This document shows, one piece after another, positions 5,407 to 63,330 of a stretch of DNA of 64,000 nt. Source of the DNA: Candidatus Cloacimonas acidaminovorans str. Evry (GTDB taxonomy: Bacteria > Cloacimonadota > Cloacimonadia > Cloacimonadales > Cloacimonadaceae); the NCBI RefSeq assembly GCF_000146065.2, contig NC_020449.1:620001-684000 (forward strand). Direction: 5' to 3'. How positions within the stretch are numbered: position 1 is the first letter of the stretch; each line of letters begins with the position of its first letter. The notes beneath the pieces are model-generated. The model was not told the DNA's origin, made no database searches, and saw only the letters and a list, made by a program, of their open reading frames with translations. The position numbers and the translations under genes are program-made.

Positions 5407-5478
5407 CGCACCGCTCCACTATTTTCTTACCAAGCAAAAAAAGAAAGAGATTTTGTCAAGAACGAATGAAGAAAATAT

Positions 5479-5588
5479 GGTTGAGATGGTTGAGAAGGTT
5501 GAGAAGGTTGAGAAAGTTGAGAAGGTTGAGAAGGTTGAGAAAGTTTAGAAGGTTGGGTGGGTTGAGAAGGTTTAAATGGTTGAGATAC
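5479..5588. repeat. 9-bp minisatellite (GGTTGAGAA)n
   Basis: About a dozen imperfect copies of GGTTGAGAA, with GGTTGAGAT, AGTTGAGAA and GGTTTAGAA variants. The reverse complement (TTCTCAACC) follows the REP-like repeats at 38568 and 63916, so the minisatellite and REP element travel as a composite. The strand is purine-rich. Open frames through it are simple repeats (SQPSQPSQP) and are not believed. Confidence 0.9.
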
Positions 5589-5591
5589 CTT

Positions 5592-5741
5592 AAAGCCCGT
5601 AGGGCGAAACAATAATAGCGATGGTGGCGTAAGCCCCTCGGAAAATGAAAACCCCGAGATCCTTTTTCCTTTTATCTTCCCCTTTGCCAAAAGCCCCTTA
5701 GGGCGACACAATGATAGCGATGGCGGCGTAAGCCCCTCGGA
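5592..5741 (-). repeat. Two REP-like palindromic repeats (family 2)
   Basis: Two copies of a roughly 50-bp element at 5592-5641 and 5690-5740. In its own orientation it reads GAGGGGCTTACGCC, CACCATCGCTATTATTG and CGCCCTACGGGCTTT. It holds two short hairpin motifs: GGGGCTTACGCC, and GCCC-TAC-GGGC. The same family recurs at 38212-38557, 62812-62860 and 63363-63910. Confidence 0.88.
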
Positions 5742-5767
5742 AAATTCACGATTTAATCGCGGTGAAG

Positions 5768-8700
5768 TTTTGACTCTAAACCGACCCTTTTGTGGTTGCA
5801 ACTATATTTTGAGGTAACAGGAAATGTTATTCGTTGCCTTCTACTTTCAAAGCTGAAGCTCGGTTTAGAGTTAAAACAAAAGAAACCGACCCTTTTGTGG
5901 TTGCAACTATATTTTGAGGTAACAGGAAATGTTATTCACTGCCTTCTACTTTCAAAGCTGAAGCTCGGTTTAGAGTTAAAACAAAAGTATCCCCCGAAGC
6001 CACAAATTCTGAACAATTCCTACCCCACATTTCTGGAGTGAAAAAATACTTTCTTTCACGATTGTGGAATTCGTGAGTTTATTGTAGCTCGGTTGCCAGT
6101 TTTCTTTTTCTTTTTTTCCGTGACCGTTGTATTCGTAAGTTTATTGTAGCTCGGTTGCAAGTGTGCAGGGTTCTTGTTTTAACTCACAATTTTGAAGTTT
6201 GGAGACCAGTTGAAAGATAGTTGTTAGTGTGCACAAATTGAGGGTTGTGGTTTCCGTGATGGCAGTGGCAAAATTGTAAGTCAAAACAAGCATCGTTGCA
6301 ACTATATGCAGACGCGATGAGGTTTTGACTCTAAACCGACCCTTTTGTGGTTGCAACTATATTTTGAGGTAACAGGAAATTTTATTCGTTGCCTTCAACT
6401 TTCAAAGCTGAAGCTCGGTTTAGAGTTAAAACAAAAGTACCCCCCGAAGCCACAAATCAAGAACAATTCCAATCCAACCCTGCTGATGTGAAAAAATACC
6501 TTCTTTCACGATTGTGGGATTTGTGAGTTTATTGTAGCTCGGTTGTAAGTGTGCTTGCTTCTTGTTTTAACTCACAATTTTTTGATTCGGAAATAGGTAA
6601 AAGCTCGGCTGAAAGTGAAATAATGAGAGGGATGTGGTTTTCTGGAAGGCAAGTGAAAATTGTAAGTCAAAACAAGCAGAGGGGGGAGGTTTTGACTCTA
6701 AACCGACCCTGTAGTGTTTGCAACGAAATTCTGACGCAACAGAAAATTTTGTTCTTTGCCTTCTACTTTCAAAGCTGAAGCTCGGTTTAGAGTTAAAACA
6801 AAAGTATCCCCCGAAGCCACAAATCAAGAACAATTCCAATCCAACCCTGCTGATGTGAAAAAATACCTTCTTTCACGATTGTGGAATTCGTGAGTTTATT
6901 GTAGCTCGGTTGCCAGTTTTCTTTTTCTTTTTTTCCGTGACCGTTGTATTCGTAAGTTTATTGTAGCTCGGTTGCAAGTGTGCAGGGTTCTTGTTTTAAC
7001 TCACAATTTTGAAGTTTGGAGACCAGTTGAAAGATAGTTGTTAGTGTGCACAAATTGAGGGTTGTGGTTTCCGTGATGGCAGTGGCAAAATTGTAAGTCA
7101 AAACAAGCATCGTTGCAACTATATGCAGACGCGATGAGGTTTTGACTCTAAACCGACCCTTTTGTGGTTGCAACTATATTTTGAGGTAACAGGAAATTTT
7201 ATTCGTTGCCTTCAACTTTCAAAGCTGAAGCTCGGTTTAGAGTTAAAACAAAAGTACCCCCCGAAGCCACAAATCAAGAACAATTCCAATCCAACCCTGC
7301 TGATGTGAAAAAATACTTTCTTTCACGATTGTGGAATTCGTGAGTTCGTTATAGCTCGGTTGTAAGTGTGCAGGGTTCTTGTTTTAACTCACAATTTTTT
7401 GATTCGGAAATAGGTAAAAGCTCGGCTGAAAGTGAAATAATGAGAGGGATGTGGTTTTCTGGAAGGCAAGTGAAAATTGTAAGTCAAAACAAGCATCGGG
7501 GGGAGGTTTTGACTCTAAACCGACCCTTTTGTGGTTGCAACTATATTTTGAGGTAACAGGAAATGTTATTCGTTGCCTTCTACTTTCAAAGCTGAAGCTC
7601 GGTTTAGAGTTAAAACAAAAGTACCCCCCGAAGCCACAAATCAAGAACAATTCCAATCCCACCTTGCTGATGTGAAAAAATACTTTCTTTCACGATTGTG
7701 GAATTTGAGGGGTTGGCGAAGCTCGGTTGTAAGTGTGCGGGGTTCTTGTTTTAACTCACAATTTTTTGATTCGGAAATAGGTAAAAGCTCGGCTGAAAGT
7801 GAAATAATGAGAGGGATGTGGTTTTCTGGAAGGCAAGTGAAAATTGTAAGTCAAAACAAGCAGAGGGGGGAGGTTTTGACTCTAAACCGACCCTTTTGTG
7901 GTTGCAACTATATTTTGAGGTAACAGGAAATTTTATTCGTTGCCTTCTACTTTCAAAGCTGAAGCTCGGTTTAGAGTTAAAACAAAAGTATCCCCCGAAG
8001 CCACAAATTCTGAACAATTCCTACCCCACATTTCTGGAGTGAAAAAATACTTTCTTTCACGATTGTGGAATTTGAGGGGTTGGCGAAGCTCGGTTGTAAG
8101 TGTGCTTTTTCTTTTTTTCCGTGACCGTGGAATTCGTGAGTTCGTTATAGCTCGGTTGTAAGTGTGCGGGGTTCTTGTTTTAACTCACAATTTTGAAATG
8201 AAGAGACCAGTAATAATTTGGTTGTAAGTGTGCACAAATTGTGGGTTGTGGTTTCCGTGAGGGCAGTGGCAAAATTGTAAGTCAAAACAAGCAGAGGGGG
8301 GAGGTTTTGACTCTAAACCGACCCTTTTGTGGTTGCAACTATATTTTGAGGTAACAGGAAATGTTATTCGTTGCCTTCAACTTTCAAAGCTGAAGCTCGG
8401 TTTAGAGTTAAAACAAAAGTATCCCCCGAAGCCACAAATCAAGAACAATTCCAATCCCACCTTGCTGATGTGAAAAAATACTTTCTTTCACGATTGTGGA
8501 ATTCGTGAGTTTGTTGTAGCGCGGTTGTAAGTGTGCTTTTTCTTTTTTTCCGTGACCGTGGAATTCGTGAGTTCGTTATAGCTCGGTTGTAAGTGTGCTT
8601 GCTTCTTGTTTTAACTCACAATTTTGAAATGAAGAGACCAGTAATAATTTGGTTGTAAGTGTGCACAAATTGTGGGTTGTGGTTTCCGTGAGGGCTGTGG

Positions 8701-8849
8701 CAAAATTGTAAGTCAAAACAAGTAGAGGGGGAGGTTTTGACTCTAAACCGACCCTTTCTACGGTTGCAACGAGATTTTGAAGCACCAGGAAATGTTATTC
8801 GTTGCCTTCAACTTTCAAAGCTGAAGCTCGGTTTAGAGTCAAAACAAAA
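5768..8849. repeat. Palindromic repeat array 1 (family 1, alternating A and B elements)
   Basis: A noncoding array of elements about 115 bp long. A elements run from TTTTGACTCTAAACCGA to TCGGTTTAGAGTTAAAACA at 5768-5882, 5884-5987 (5' truncated), 6323-6437, 6690-6804, 7140-7254, 7507-7621, 7874-7988, 8305-8419 and 8735-8849. B elements run from TTGTTTTAACTCACAATTTT to AAAATTGTAAGTCAAAACAA at 6174-6289, 6562-6675, 6991-7106, 7379-7492, 7746-7859, 8173-8290 and 8606-8721. The reverse complement of B has the same tips as A, so A and B lie head to head. Linkers carry other repeats, such as GTGACCGTGGAATTCGTGAG and TAGCTCGGTTGTAAGTGTGC. Short open frames on both strands are by-products of the repeat. 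Confidence 0.93.
6045..7305. repeat. 817-bp near-perfect tandem duplication inside array 1
   Basis: The segment beginning near 6045 recurs near 6862 with an offset of 817 bp. It covers a B element, an A element and their linkers. A 216-bp stretch (6141-6356 versus 6958-7173) translates identically in both copies. This points to recent unequal crossing-over or conversion. Confidence 0.85.
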
Positions 8850-11750: not shown

Positions 11751-12614
11751 AACATTCCTCCTAAAGGAAATGATATTAAGTTACAAAAATTAAGTTATTG
11801 TGTCTATTGTTTCGGTTTGGATATCCGAAAGCTAAGGCACGACATTGTTTCTTTATCCGGTGTTTTTTTATTATGCTCTTCACCGGCAATTGCTCTTGAA
11901 AAGTGAATAAGACATTACGCATTTTTCTTCTGCATATCTTGCAAAATGGTTATGCGCCAGCTATTGAAAAGTAAAAAAAACTTTCATCGCACATTACACT
12001 CTATATACATTTATAGTATATCACACTACAATTACCACTATCTATACAGCCAAAATCCTGTCAAGCAAAAAATCATCTTTTTTTCAATTTTTTTCCTTTT
12101 TACGAATTTGTTTGGCAGTGAGGACAAATAACGATCCCGGTATTCACCAAAAAATAGAACACAGATAACTGGATCTACTGGATCAACAGGATTTTTTCCT
12201 TTGCCATTATCTCGTAAAAAAAAGTCCCTCTAAATTTGTGTAATCCTGTTCTTCCCTTATCTATTTCCATCTGAGGAATCAAGATGAAAACTGTGTAATC
12301 CTGTTCTTCCCTTATCTATTTCCATCTGAGGAATCAAGATGAAAAGTGTGTAATCTGGGAGAGATAATCCTTCCTTTCTCGCACTTGTTTTTTATCACTC
12401 TATATACATCTGCCTACCTTACACTACAATTACATAATAAAGCATAAAGGAAAAATGTCAAGCAGAAAATCATCTTTTTTCTGTCTTTTTCCTTGATATT
12501 TTTTCACATTCTTTACCTCTTCCTTAATAGCATTGCTTACCCATTGCTTACCCATTACGGATGAAGTGAGTATTAAGTCCGTAATGATAAGACAATATGC
12601 TTTGCGCGGTGAAG
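11751..12614. other. Noncoding leader and promoter region upstream of the 11750 gene
   Basis: No credible gene. Contents are two diverged copies of one promoter-proximal block (about 12001-12080 and 12400-12480), both with ACACTACAATTAC and TGTCAAGCA-AAAATCATC; a tandem pair of about 57 bp at 12235-12350 (CCTGTTCTTCCCTTATCTAT and CTGAGGAATCAAGATGAAAA); a short GGATCTACTGGATCAACAGGATT repeat near 12170; and a 38-bp block at 12519-12556 that recurs inverted at 60286-60323. Confidence 0.7.
12434..12461 (-). promoter_or_regulatory. Sigma70-type promoter candidate for 11750-8918
   Basis: On the minus strand, TTGACA (12461-12456), a 16-bp spacer and TATTAT (12439-12434). The same consensus and spacing recurs upstream of two giant secreted-protein genes. 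The 5' leader would be about 680 bases. Confidence 0.55.
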
Positions 12615-13293
12615 TTTTGACTCTAAACCGACACTTTTGTGGTTGCAACGAGATTTTGCCGCGGTGAGGTTTTGACTCTAAACCGACCCTTTTGTAGTTG
12701 CAACGAAATTTTGAGGCAACAGGAAATTTTATTTCCTGTCTTCTACTTTCAAAGCTGAAGCTCGGTTTAGAGTTAAAACAAAAGTATCCCCCGAAGTCAC
12801 AAATTCCGAACAATTCCTACCCCACATTTCTGGAGTGAAAAAATGCTTTCTTTCACGATGGAGGAATTTGAAAGAAAGCTGAAGCTCGGTTTAGAGTTAA
12901 AACAAAAGAACCTCCTGAAGCCACAAATGATGAACAATTCCTACCCCACATTTCTGGAGTGAAAAAATGCTTTCTTTCACGATGGAGGAATTTGAAAGAA
13001 AGCTGAAGCTCGGTTTAGAGTTAAAACAAAAGAACCTCCTGAAGCCACAAATGATGAACAATTCCTACCCCACATTTCTGGAGCGGCTGAATATATATTT
13101 TTTCCGTGACCGTGGAATTCGTGAGTTTGTTGTAGCTCGGTTGACAGTGTGCGGGGTTCTTGTTTTAACTCACAATTTTTTAATTCGGAAATAGGTAAAA
13201 GCTCGGCTGAAAGTGAAATAATGAGAGGGAAGTGGTTTTCTGGAAGGCAAGTGAAAATTGTGAGTCAAAACGGTTTCCGGGCAAAATTGTAAG

Positions 13294-13872
13294 TCAAAAC
13301 AAAATGCTATCCTTCTCAAATGCTCTTTGCATTGACTTTTTTCTTGCTATATCAATAACTTTCAATCTGTATTTTTCCGGATTGACGATATAATCCATCA
13401 AGAATTGTTCTGAATATAATTTCCCTTTGCGCATCCTGATATATTCCCTGAAATTGGAATATTCCCATTCTTCTGGAAAACCTACTAAGCCTGCCTGAAC
13501 AGGATTGGCATGAATATAGGCACAAGCATTGAAGAGATAATTTTCCGTTGGTGTTTCAATATGATGTAAGGGACTGCGAAATATCCTTCCTTTGAAGTTA
13601 TATTTTTTATTGTAATAGCGTGCATATCTTTTGTGAGTTCTTTCCAGTAATGAACTAATTGCTTCAGGTGCATTTTGACGCAAAAGAAAATGAAAATGAT
13701 TGGGCATAAGGCAATAGGCAATTACAGTTACTTTATAGTCCAATTCCTTTTTAAATAAGTAAAGATAGGTTTTATAATCACCAGGGTCATAAAAAAGTTT
13801 TCTGCTATCAATGGAATGATTTACGATATGGAAATAAGTGTTGAGGGAACGATGAATCATTTTTGTGCGCAT
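13294..13872 (-). CDS. REP-associated tyrosine transposase-like protein (RAYT, Y1/HUH family)
   Basis: A 192-residue Y1 transposase-like protein counted from the ATG at 13872, which has AGGAGA 7 bases upstream. A longer in-frame start at 13941 lacks such a site. The HUH pair is in YCLMPNHFHFLL (H59 and H61), and the family signature with the presumed catalytic tyrosine is YIHANPVQAGLV (Y119), followed by WEYSNFREY. The family nicks single-stranded DNA at hairpin-bearing REP sequences. The stop codon is the TGA inside the repeat tip TTTTGACTTACAATTTT, so the coding region runs directly into a family-1 element; on its other side an A element begins at about 13992. That placement suggests the array is this enzyme's substrate. 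All key residues are present. Confidence 0.88.
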   Translation of the reverse strand: MRTKMIHRSLNTYFHIVNHSIDSRKLFYDPGDYKTYLYLFKKELDYKVTVIAYCLMPNHFHFLLRQNAPEAISSLLERTHKRYARYYNKKYNFKGRIFRSPLHHIETPTENYLFNACAYIHANPVQAGLVGFPEEWEYSNFREYIRMRKGKLYSEQFLMDYIVNPEKYRLKVIDIARKKSMQRAFEKDSILF

Positions 13873-14458
13873 TCGGAAATCTCCTGTTTTTATTAGATAT
13901 GATAAATACTTTCGGGAAGAAAACAAATAATATTTTTGCATTTGCTCTCCCGGATGAAGTTTTGATGCGGTGATGTTTTGACGCGGTGAAGTTTTGACTC
14001 TAAACCGATTCTTGCTGTGTTTGCAACTATATGCAAACGCAACAGAAAATTTTGTTCACTGTCTTCTACTTTCAAAGCTGAAGCTCGGTTTAGAGTTAAA
14101 ACAAAAGTATCCCCCGAAGCCACAAATTCCGAACAATTCCTACCCCACATTTCTGGAGTGAAAAAATGCTTTCTTTCACGATGGAGGAATTTGAAAGAAA
14201 GCTGAAGCTCGGTTTAGAGTTAAAACAAAAACAAACCGACTCTTTTATAGTTGCAACTATATGCAGACGAAACAGGAAATGTTATTCGTTGCCTTCAACT
14301 TTCAAAGCTGAAGCTCGGTTTAGAGTTAAAACAAAAGTATCCCCCGAAGTCACAAATGATGAACAATTCCTACCCCACATTTCTGGAGTGAAAAAATTCT
14401 TTCTTCCACGATGTTGGAATTCGTGAGTTCGTTGTAGCTCGGTTGACAGTGTGCAGGG

Positions 14459-15900
14459 TTCTTGTTTTTCCGTGACCGTGGAATTCGTGAGTTTGTTGTA
14501 GCTCGGTTGACAGTGTGCGGGGTTCTTGTATTTCCGTAACCGTGAAATTCGTAAGTTTGTTGTAGTTCGGTTGTAAGTGTGCGGGGTTCTTGTTTTAACT
14601 CACAATTTTTTGATTCGGAAATAGGTAAAAGCTCGGCTGAAAGTGAAATAATGAGAGGGAAGTGGTTTTCTGGAAGGCAAGTGAAAATTGTAAGTCAAAA
14701 CAAGCAGAGGGGGGAAGTTTTGACTCTAAACCGATTCTTGCTGTGTTTGCAACTATATTTTTGAGGCAACAGGAAATTTTATTCACTGCCTTCTACTTTC
14801 AAAGCTGAAGCTCGGTTTAGAGTTAAAACAAAAATCAAACCGACTCTTTTATAGTTGCAACTATATGCAGACGAAACAGGAAATGTTATTCGTTGCCTTC
14901 AACTTTCAAAGCTGAAGCTCGGTTTAGAGTTAAAACAAAAGTATCCCCCGAAGTCACAAATGATGAACAATTCCTACCCCACATTTCTGGAGTGAAAAAA
15001 TGCTTTCTTTCACGATGGAGGAATTTGAAAGAAAGCTGAAGCTCGGTTTAGAGTTAAAACAAAAGTCTGGAATGGCTGAATATGTATTTTTTCCGTGACC
15101 GTGGAATTCGTGAGTTTGTTGCAGCTCGGTTGTAAGTCTGCGGGTTCTTGTTTTTCCGTGACCGTGGAATTCGTGAGTTTGTTGTAGCTCGGTTGACAGT
15201 GTGCGGGGTTCTTGTATTTCCGTAACCGTGAAATTCGTAAGTTTGTTGTAGTTCGGTTGTAAGTGTGCGGGGTTCTTGTTTTAACTCACAATTTTTTGAT
15301 TCGGAAATAGGTAAAAGCTCGGCTGAAAGTGAAATAATGAGAGGGAAGTGGTTTTCTGGAAGGCAAGTGAAAATTGTAAGTCAAAACAAGCAGAGGGGGG
15401 AAGTTTTGACTCTAAACCGATTCTTGCTGTGTTTGCAACTATATTTTTGAGGCAACAGGAAATTTTATTCACTGCCTTCTACTTTCAAAGCTGAAGCTCG
15501 GTTTAGAGTTAAAACAAAAACAAACCGACTCTTTTATAGTTGCAACTATATGCAGACGAAACAGGAAATGTTATTCGTTGCCTTCAACTTTCAAAGCTGA
15601 AGCTCGGTTTAGAGTTAAAACAAAAGTATCCCCCGAAGTCACAAATGATGAACAATTCCTACCCCACATTTCTGGAGTGAAAAAATGCTTTCTTTCACGA
15701 TGGAGGAATTTGAAAGAAAGCTGAAGCTCGGTTTAGAGTTAAAACAAAAGTCTGGAATGGCTGAATATGTATTTTTTCCGTGACCGTGGAATTCGTGAGT
15801 TTGTTGCAGCTCGGTTGTAAGTCTGCGGGTTCTTGTTTTTCCGTGACCGTGGAATTCGTGAGTTTGTTGTAGCTCGGTTGACAGTGTGCGGGGTTCTTGT
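14459..15900. repeat. 686-bp tandem repeat inside array 2
   Basis: Two nearly identical 686-bp copies and part of a third, each holding a B element, two A elements and the CCGTGACCGTGGAATTCGTG linkers. One visible difference is an extra T near 14835 relative to 15521. This is a recent amplification. Confidence 0.85.
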
Positions 15901-16212
15901 TTTAACTCACAATTTTTTGATTCGGAAATAGGTAAAAGCTCGGCTGAAAGTGAAATAATGAGAGGGAAGTGGTTTTCTGGAAGGCAAGTGAAAATTGTAA
16001 GTCAAAACAAGCATCGGGTTTGTTGTAGCTCGGTTGACAGTGTGCAGGGTTCTTGTTTTAACTCACAATTTTGAAGTTTGGAGACCAGTTGAAAGATAGT
16101 TGTAAGTGTGTATAAATTGAGGGTTGTTGTTTCTGTGAGGGCTGTGGCAAAATTGTAAGTCAAAACGGTGCCCGGGCAAAATTGTAAGTCAAAACAAGCA
16201 GCAAAACAGGCA

Positions 16213-23049: not shown

Positions 23050-23530
23050 TTTCGGGGAGTTTTGATGATGTTTTGACTCTAAACCGACCCTTTTATGGTT
23101 GGAACTATATTTTGAGGCTGTGATGTTTTGACTCTAAACCGATCCTTTTGTGGTTGCAACTATATGCAGAGGCAACAGGAAATTCTGTTCGTTGCCTTCA
23201 ACTTTCAAAGCTGAAGCTCGGTTTAGAGTTAAAACAAAAGAACCCCCCGAAGCCACAAATTCTGAACAATTCCTACCCCACATTTCTGGAGTGGCTGAAT
23301 ATATATTTTTTCCGTGACCGTGTAATTCGTGAGTTTGGTGTAGCTCGGTTGACAGTGTGCAGGTTCTTGTTTTAACTCACAATTTTGAAGTGAGGAGACC
23401 GGTAATAATTTGGTTGCAAGTGTGTTCAAATTGAGGGTTGTGGTTTCCGTGATGGCAGTGGCAAAATTGTAAGTCAAAACAAGCATCGGGTTGTGGTTTC
23501 CCGGGCAAAATTGTAAGTTAAAACAAGTAG
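23050..23530. repeat. Palindromic repeat array 3 (family 1)
   Basis: A short array: a truncated A (23071-23120), a full A (23125-23240), a B (23367-23482) and a spare right end of B (about 23505-23528). It lies between the promoter of one giant gene and the terminator of the other. Confidence 0.9.
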
Positions 23531-48600: not shown

Positions 48601-48615
48601 ATTTGTTGGGTGGAG

Positions 48616-50534
48616 TTTTGACTCTAAACCGACTCTTTTACGGTTGCAACTATATTATGAGGCAACAGGAAATGTTATTCGTTGCCTTCTACTTTCAAAG
48701 CTGAAGCTCGGTTTAGAGTTAAAACAAAAGCAATGCCGGTGTTTGAAGAAATAGTGCATTGCTGTTACCAGTGTGCTTTTTTTGTTTTTTCGCGATGGTG
48801 GAATTTGTGAGTTCGTTTTAGCTCGGTTGTAAGTGTGCTTGCTTCTTGTTTTTTCGTGACCGCGGAATTCGTGAGTTCGTTTTAGCTCGGTTGTAAGGGT
48901 GCAGGGTTCTTGTTTTAACTCACAATTTTGAAATGAAGAGACCAAATGTAGTTCGGTTGCCAGTGTTTGTAATTTGAAGGTTGTGGTTTCTGTGATGGCT
49001 GTGGCAAAATTGTAAGTCAAAACAAGCATCGCGGTGGAGTTTTGACTCTAAACCGACTCTTTTACGGTTGCAACTATATTTTGAGGCAACAGGAAATGTT
49101 ATTCGTTGCCTTCAACTTTTGCAGCTGAAGCTCGGTTTAGAGTTAAAACAAAAGTGTCCCCCGAAGCCACAAATTCTGAACAATTCCTACCCCACCTTTC
49201 TGGAGCGAAAAAATACTTTCTTTCACGATGGTGGAATTCGTGAGTTTGTTGTAGCTCGGTTGTAAGTGTGCTTGTTTCTTGTTTTTCCGTAACCGTGGAA
49301 TTCGTAAGTTTGTTGTAGCTCGGTTGACGGTATGTAGAGTTCTTGTTTTTTCGTGACCGCGGAATTTGAGGGTTTGTTGCAGCTCGGTTGTAAGGGTGCT
49401 TGCTTCTTGTTTTAACTCACAATTTTGAAATGAAGAGACCAAATGTAGTTCGGTTGCCAGTGTTTGTAATTTGAGGGTTGTGGTTTCTGTGATGGCTGTG
49501 GCAAAATTGTAAGTCAAAACGGTACCCTGGTGGAGTTTTGACTCTAAACCGACCCTTTTGTGTTTGCAACTATATTTTGAGGTAACAGGAAATGTTATTC
49601 ATTGCCTTCAACTTTAACAGCTGAAGCTCGGTTTAGAGTTAAAACAAAAGTGTCCCCCGAAGCCACAAATTCTGAACAATTCCACCCCACCTTTCTGGAG
49701 CGAAAAAATACTTTCTTTCACGATGCCGGTGTTTGAAAAAATAGTGTATTGCTATTGCCAGTTTGCTTTTTTTTGTTTTTTCGTGACCGCGGAATTTGAT
49801 GGTTTGTTGTAGTTTGGTTGTAAGGGTGCAGGGTTCTTGTTTTTTCGTGACCGCGGAATTTGTGGGTTTGTTGTAGCTCGGCTGTAAGGGTGCTTGCTTC
49901 TTGTTTTAACTCACAATTTTTTGATTAGGAAACAAGTTATAGCTCAGTTGCAAGTGAAAATGTTCGTGGGATGTGGTTTTCTGGAAGGCAAGTGAAAATT
50001 GTAAGTCAAAACGGTGCCCGGGTGGAGTTTTGACTCTAAACCGACCCTTTTGCGTTTGCAACTATATTTTGAGGCAACAGGAAATGTTATTCATTGCCTT
50101 CAACTTTCACAGCTGAAGCTCGGTTTAGAGTTAAAACAAAAGTGCCTTCCGAAGCCACAAATTCCAAACAATTCCTACCTCACATTTCTGGAGTGAAAAA
50201 ATACTTTCTTTCACGATGCCGGTGTTTGAAGAAATAGTGTATTGCTGTTGTCAGTTTGCTTTTTTCTTGTTTTTTCGTGACTGCGGAATTTGATGGTTTG
50301 TTGTAGTTTGGTTGTAAGGGTGCAAGGTTCTTGTTTTTTCGTGACCGCGGAATTCGTGGGTTCGTTGTAGCTCGGTTGTAAGTGTGCTTGCTTCTTGTTT
50401 TAACTCACAATTTTTTAATTCGAAAACAAGTTATAGCTCAGTTGCAAGTGAAAATGTTCGTGGGATGTGGTTTTCTGGAAGGCAAGTGAAAATTGTAAGT
50501 CAAAACGGTGCCCGTGTGAAGTTAAAACAAAAGA
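48616..50534. repeat. Palindromic repeat array 4 (family 1)
   Basis: A and B elements as in array 1, somewhat diverged (ACTCTTTTACGG in A; TTTTTCGTGACCGCGGAATT linkers). A copies begin near 48616, 49038, 49533 and 50023; B copies begin near 48905, 49407, 49900 and 50395. Period is about 420-500 bp. It ends with a bare right tip (GAAGTTAAAACAAAAG) at about 50518-50534, right before the leader of the next secreted-protein gene. Confidence 0.9.
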
Positions 50535-62880: not shown

Positions 62881-63330
62881 TTAAACTGATTGCTTTTCCC
62901 TCAATTTATCAGGGTCCCAATGTTTTTTCAAAAGAGCATTAAATTCCTCTTCTACAGTAATATTATGATGATGGTCTGCTTGATGTTCAATATAATCCTT
63001 TACATCATCTATATTTGATTTACTGACCGAAAATGCGGCATAACCATCTTGCCAATGAAAATCCAACTTGGTTTTTTCCCGGAACCATTTACTGGAATTG
63101 GCTTTTAACTTTACCATAAAATCCACCATACTTAATTCTTTGGGAGCTAAACAAAGAATATGAATATGATCTTCAATTCCGCCAATGGAAATAGGTATAC
63201 CCTTTAAATTGATAATAATGCCATAAAGATAGGCATACATTTATTCAGCAAGAGTTTTTTTGAGCCAGGTTTTACGATTTTTGGTAGAAAAGATAATGTG
63301 AACCGCTAAATGACAAAAAGATGCAGGCAT
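62881..63330 (-). pseudogene. tnpA: IS200-like Y1 transposase with an in-frame stop codon
   Basis: Read from the ATG at 63330, the frame gives MPASFCHLAVHIIFSTKNRK...KKTLAE, then TAA (63243-63241), then MYAYLYGIIINLKG and onward to 62881. Both pieces match the IS200/IS605 TnpA layout: VHIIFSTKNR at the start, the HUH pair in EDHIHILC, WQDGYAAFSVS and the presumed nucleophile Tyr in DYIEHQADHH. The complete protein would be 149 positions, the usual size. A single C-to-T change (CAA to TAA) explains the stop. Translation restart at the ATG right after it would lack the first strand, so it is probably inactive. No TnpB is present. Confidence 0.85.

Follow-up and report, generated by a model that had tools for sequence, protein, structure and literature searches.

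RAYTs have been characterised mainly in Proteobacteria, together with GTAG-tagged REPs. Another class of short repeat, the Correia-type MITEs, has inverted ends, is about 110 bp long and occurs in many intergenic copies. In the REPtron, a RAYT is accompanied by REPINs and BIMEs (Nunvar 2010, PMC2817692; Bertels and Rainey 2011, PMC3116915), and the E. coli RAYT reads GTAG through W94, Q95 and R104 (PMC6006769). REPs are found directly past RAYT stops, and REP ends can serve as stop codons (PMC3733652, PMC2817692). A looser class, the TIRtron, was described in 2013 (PMC3733652). Here a RAYT-like gene (TIRYT) lies between long inverted repeats that are not GTAG REPs; some of these repeats overlap the 3′ end of the gene, and some are moderately abundant and occur in dimers or clusters. 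Most TIRYTs (subclass 2.1) are long proteins with an HTH tail (PMC6006769). In the IS200/IS605 family, recognition uses irregularities in the stem of the hairpin (PMC8266576). Cloacimonadota are not named in the main text of PMC3733652 or PMC6006769, and our literature search turned up no publication that treats REPs or RAYTs of this phylum.

The window analysed here is a stretch of 64,000 nucleotides, positions 620001-684000 of a complete genome that consists of one contig of 2,246,820 bases (G000). It contains a single RAYT gene and several arrays of two related repeat elements, A and B, with the following features.

13294 to 13872, minus strand: RAYT (Y1/HUH tyrosine transposase) gene, 192 aa, assigned by profiles, invariant residues and predicted fold
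13283 to 13300, minus strand: extra B-type tip (GAC end), GTTTTGACTTACAATTTT, whose TGA at 13294-13296 is the RAYT stop
13162 to 13271, minus strand: B element in the 3′ flank of the RAYT, with its GAC end facing the gene
13960-13965, 13976-13981 and 13992-13997, plus strand: three TTTTGA tips on the 5′ side of the RAYT, 16 bp apart
13991 to 14102, plus strand: A element in the 5′ flank of the RAYT, with its GAC end facing the gene
12614 to 16198, no strand assigned: mosaic A/B array around the RAYT, A and B mutually inverted
about 5474 to 8846 (5767 to 8845 as a listed feature), no strand assigned: second A/B array, about 3.4 kb, absent from the counterpart in genome G003
23070 to 23524, no strand assigned: third, small A/B cluster, with A and B tip sites
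48615 to 50506, no strand assigned: fourth A/B array, with A and B tip sites

In G003, the place of the second array is taken by about 300 bp of unrelated sequence, and the alignment there is not clean.

The gene encodes a complete and genuine RAYT. Its product matched the Y1_Tnp profile (7.7e-10), which was the only Pfam match, and the NCBIfam model REP_Tyr_transpos with 58.9 bits (E 5.1e-16), a score below the cut-off of 80, which is that of one equivalog model and so limits the name rather than the superfamily. The HUH motif is H59-F-H61 and the catalytic tyrosine is Y119, within Y119-IHA-N123-P124 (192-aa numbering); H59, H61, Y119, N123 and P124 are all invariant in an alignment of 33 relatives. 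The structure model (pLDDT 88.6), which is helical beyond the core, best matched the E. coli RAYT with its REP hairpin (4er8; Z 17.2, 159 aligned residues). The next-best fold match was IS608 (2a6m, Z 9.3). Matches to Thg1 and ribosomal S6 in the fold search were set aside as reflecting a common ferredoxin-like arrangement rather than kinship. The residues aligned with W94, Q95 and R104 of the E. coli RAYT are F, K and T, in keeping with the absence of GT[AG]G at the tips described below.

The longest open reading frame at the locus extends further (13294-13941, minus strand, 215 aa). Alignments with homologues begin at its residue 24, and the G003 orthologue has a stop codon immediately ahead of the Met at that position, so the start at 13872 is correct. 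The stops in G003 thus lie upstream of the true start, which rules out that this orthologue is a pseudogene. Profiles, motifs, fold and start site all agree with the sequence-only reading of the gene, which had placed a RAYT at 13294-13872 inside a repeat array. The gene has one copy in G000 and is intact in three genomes: G000, G003 (88% identical over the aligned part, with the locus syntenic) and L193 (94%). The RAYT of G004 is 60% identical. A scan of IMG/VR for the RAYT gave no match. Elsewhere in G000 there are remnants of two IS200-type Y1 transposases, one in the window at 62980-63312 (minus strand, with one internal stop) and one at genome position 802675-803019.

The A and B elements are 109-114 bp long, with inverted tips of 18 bp around a loop of about 75 nt. 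One end of an element reads GTTTTGAC and the opposite end finishes GTTAAAAC; A elements start with GTTTTGACTCTAAACCGA and end with TCGGTTTAGAGTTAAAAC, and B elements start with GTTTTGACTTACAATTTT and end with AAAATTGTGAGTTAAAAC. In the window, the A tip occurs at 45 sites (≤3 mismatches; 0.14 expected) and the B tip at 37 sites (0.86 expected). Pattern searches of the whole genome (≤2 mismatches) found 53 sites for the A tip compared to 1 for a reversed control, and 141 for the B tip compared to 23; exact B tips numbered 93, with 0 in the control. Single A and B copies are dispersed at many places in the genome. In folds, A and B tips lack a stable inner palindrome and instead pair with each other. 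An Rfam scan of the 64-kb window gave no match.

Adjacent A and B elements are inverted relative to each other in 55 of 56 neighbouring pairs (and head-to-tail once), many of these pairs being tandem copies and so not independent. The GAC ends face each other in 21 A-B pairs, with a median gap of 15 bp, and the AAC ends do so in 34, with a median gap of 138 bp. The RAYT itself lies between a B and an A whose GAC ends face each other. At three loci the B tip of the GAC end is repeated in tandem two to four times in 31-bp steps (L056:745-824, L062:4431-4510 and L064:1277-1387), resembling a stutter at the end of the element. Another short repeat family lies beside B elements at L070 (4823-4973 and 7419-7670); the majority of the 62 G003 matches and of the 131 G008 matches belong to it.

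The two tips of an element are not equivalent. Of 140 distinct elements, 135 carry G at position 6 of one tip and A at position 6 of its partner; as this position also served to orient the elements, what counts is that the tips are of two kinds, not which comes first. A second difference, at position 10 (T in the GAC-end tip, C in its partner), occurs in 66 elements, and 63 of these belong to the 88 B elements. At the remaining inner positions, at most a few elements differ between tips. Paired tips therefore contain a G.T wobble on the strand that reads GAC first and an A.C mismatch on its complement. Of 135 elements, 129 have their more stable stem on the GAC-first strand. When the whole element is folded with its loop, the difference between strands becomes small (85 of 135), which places the strand mark in the stem. 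Only 11 of 135 elements have GT[AG]G at 8 bp or less from the GAC end. Across nine families of element, the outer TTTGAC/GTTAAA (the tip code) is fixed, and the inner stem varies as matched pairs. The G/A asymmetry would thus be a mark of strand, as expected of single-stranded substrates.

Tips also lie on both sides of the RAYT gene. The tip at 13283-13300 reads AAAATTGTAAGTCAAAAC on the plus strand and GTTTTGACTTACAATTTT on the minus strand, on which the last codons of the gene are ATT TTG TTT TGA. The final TGA (13294-13296) lies within the TTTTGA of this tip, as had been proposed when the stop codon was said to be taken from a repeat. A repeat-borrowed stop codon is a known habit of REPs (PMC3733652) and is nothing new. 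The gene ending TTTTGTTTTGA is retained in G003 and L193, and the sequence that follows it differs (TTTTTTTCTAC and AGAACCCTGCAC), so that the RAYT module seems to have its border at TTTTGA. The G004 RAYT ends with ATATTTTGA inside its own tip, TTTTGACTTACAACTGAAG, which starts a different hairpin, TTTTGACTTACAACTGAAGCC. On the 5′ side, the three TTTTGA tips lead into element A as had been reported, the third (13992-13997) being the start of that element, with the position given earlier (about 13968-13995) slightly off; the tips span 13960-13997.

The association between RAYTs and hairpins extends across the phylum. In the 125 genomes searched, 60% of 85 RAYTs have a DNA hairpin within 110 nt past the stop (z<-2), compared to 0% and 3% for the controls. 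The same 12-mer is present on both flanks of 66 of 78 RAYTs, compared to 73 of 883 cross-locus control pairs. Elements with the tip code (TTTGAC...GTTAAA) flank 5 of 89 RAYT loci, those of G000, G003, G014, G004 and G010, and the five RAYTs form one clade with 99% support. The trait requires a single change on the tree, compared to 4.9 in shuffles, and 0 of 500 shuffles were as low. As all five come from one bacterial family, this co-inheritance may partly reflect common ancestry. The other RAYTs examined carry other hairpins. In other clades (L012, L020, L137, L172 and L175), classical REP-like hairpins are found past the stop, such as CCCGAGTCG...CGACTCGGG and CCTTGCGAA.

The RAYTs of G004, G010 and G014 lie outside A/B arrays, yet have tip-code elements on their flanks; in G004, inverted-repeat flanks on both sides resemble the layout in G000. 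Each has its own type of element. A tips occur in G000, G003 and G008, with traces elsewhere, and B tips also in G002. G004-type elements are present, within the genus, only in G004 and G006. In the eight genomes searched, G010-type elements were found only in G010 (14 sites) and G014-type elements only in G014 (3 sites). By their sequences, the element families are non-mixing, each limited to its own or sister genomes. A different repeat beside the RAYT had been named in the sequence-only reading as evidence against the pairing, and this is borne out only for part of the element: RAYTs that are 47-65% identical have flanking elements that differ in the stem, with the same tip code. The L193 RAYT has A/B elements on both sides. 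Its record (JAKQKB010000053.1) is titled Bacteroidota bacterium, yet it carries the 94% identical RAYT together with A/B elements, and the title is probably a misassignment.

Two genomes complicate this association. Abundant A/B elements in a genome that lacks a related RAYT had also been named as counter-evidence, and on the face of it two genomes fit this description: G008, with 37 A and 12 B tips at 99% completeness, and G002, with 31 B tips at 98%. The case is not clean, as the contigs break in the repeats. No RAYT of the tip-code clade was found in either assembly, both of which are broken at A/B repeats. In G002, the starts of three contigs fall within a B tip, and the contig that carries a relative of the gene bordering the RAYT array begins in a B array; in G008, the end of contig C25 falls within an A tip. 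These breaks leave the absence of the RAYT from G008 and G002 unproven. In G008, no copy has a relative elsewhere whose loop is more than 91% alike, whereas the best likeness between loops at separate places is 99-100% in G000, G003 and G002. Some A′ and B copies at separate places in G002 are 98-99% alike, which points to recent spread in a genome where the enzyme was not found. The pattern of loop divergence would therefore fit loss of the enzyme in G008, and not in G002. At L082, L077 and L088, G002 also contains a composite of about 265 bp, made of a B and an A-like element (stem CTAAAAAGA) with GAC ends outward; it is near-identical at several places, and its two borders are TTAA and AATTTTGG.

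How does this locus compare with the described systems? As in REPtrons, a single-copy RAYT lies between inverted copies of a genome-abundant repeat, a repeat follows directly past the RAYT stop, and RAYT and repeat change together. As in REPINs, two inverted conserved ends fold as one hairpin, and the size is similar (109-114 bp compared to about 70-110 bp); the mosaic arrays with alternating orientation resemble BIMEs. The REPtron layout with REPINs and BIMEs is thus present, but two of its defining features are absent, as A/B tips lack the GT[AG]G tag and A/B halves lack a palindromic REP. In addition, the A/B strand is marked by a conserved wobble pair, unlike in REPtrons, and the elements have an 18-bp stem and a loop of about 75 nt, whereas known RAYT substrates are short hairpins. 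The system fits the looser TIRtron class (PMC3733652), in that the repeats around the RAYT-like gene are long, inverted and not related to GTAG REPs. It differs in that the GGGGWSAS motif was not seen in A/B tips (by eye), and the protein has 192 aa, compared to the long proteins with an HTH tail described for most TIRYTs. With the IS200/IS605 family (IS608, ISDra2) it shares the HUH Y1 fold and, by analogy, would share action on single-strand hairpins. However, the structural match to that family is lower (Z at most 9.3, compared to 17.2 for the E. coli RAYT), and one RAYT copy with many separate repeats is not a mobile gene unit. The best reading is a RAYT/REPIN-BIME system that lacks GTAG tags and stands close to TIRtrons. 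We put at about 0.75 the probability that this RAYT has its own family of hairpin elements, in a REPIN/BIME-like system.

We considered whether the A/B elements might instead be MITEs of an ordinary DDE insertion sequence that shares their inverted ends, with the RAYT in the array by chance. Their length of about 110 bp and inverted ends resemble Correia-type MITEs, the long and near-perfect inverted tips without a short inner hairpin are MITE-like, and elements are present in G002 and G008, where no close RAYT was found. Unlike Correia-type and other MITEs, however, the elements showed neither a DDE element nor a target duplication. In 34 isolated copies, no consistent duplication was found (the longest was 6 bp), and the mean length of 2.65, compared to 2.25 in permuted flanks, is a small excess attributable to flanks common to subfamilies, such as AGAAA. 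A search for a clean empty site found none; the 8-kb query contained several B elements, flanks were poorly conserved and another repeat flooded the output. The tips pair at about 110 bp, and no larger element was seen in the stretches read. The ends of DDE elements need no strand mark, yet A/B elements are strand-asymmetric, keeping G/A at position 6 in almost all cases, and the tip-code elements track one RAYT clade. A MITE origin is therefore distinctly improbable.

It is also unlikely that the RAYT is inactive, or acts on other repeats, and that the arrays grow solely by unequal crossing-over and gene conversion, with the match between gene end and tip arising from location. The arrays are indeed tandem and near-identical, and the sequence after TTTTGA differs between G000, G003 and L193, as if recombination had occurred at the tips. 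Array growth of this kind is at odds with the single copies dispersed around the genome, with RAYTs outside A/B arrays that still have tip-code flanks, and with a RAYT kept intact in three genomes. The single-strand fold, strand mark and large loop are reminiscent of integron attC sites, single-strand hairpins for a tyrosine recombinase. The attC core is RYYYAAC/GTTRRRY, from which the tips GTTTTRAC/GTYAAAAC differ by eye. No gene cassettes lie between the elements, which are mostly 15 or about 138 bp apart, and the associated enzyme is a RAYT. The attC reading, which has very little probability, was set aside on the anatomy of the elements.

The RAYT thus remains the likely agent that spreads the A/B repeats, through what would be a strand-marked, single-strand mechanism. 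The sequence-only reading had put it forward as the candidate, which is well supported by the comparison between genomes, where one RAYT clade goes with its own element families, and is weakened by G008 and G002, where no close RAYT was found. A possible mechanism starts from the observed anatomy of the elements, their strand mark and their co-inheritance with the RAYT. In single-stranded DNA, for example the lagging-strand template, the GAC-first strand would fold into the long stem. The RAYT would recognise the tip by the conserved TTTGAC/GTTAAA and the wobble, in place of GTAG, and would use its HUH motif and Tyr119 to nick beside the tip and then rejoin the ends. Folding, nicking by Tyr119 and rejoining are modelled on RAYT and IS200/IS605 biochemistry (PMC8266576). 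Nicking and rejoining could lead to excision, copying and insertion of elements, and so to mosaic arrays, which unequal crossing-over among copies could then lengthen. The TTTTGA at the end of the RAYT would be a module border that doubles as a stop codon.

The data above link a RAYT clade to long hairpin elements that lack the tag and have a strand mark that can be measured, in a phylum whose members are largely uncultured. They also provide candidate natural enzyme-substrate pairs (G000/G003, G004, G010 and G014), with a constant tip on stems that vary, which make RAYT recognition and GTAG-less, REPIN-like elements directly testable. We suggest only tentatively, at less than even odds, that this clade has abandoned GTAG and the short hairpin, and that its substrate is recognised by a wobble code in the tip. 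The end would be a fixed TTTGAC/GTTAAA with a G.T pair marking the strand, and the inner part of the long stem would be free to vary as long as it is paired. If true, the wobble-coded tip would be a distinct mode of substrate recognition among HUH transposases.
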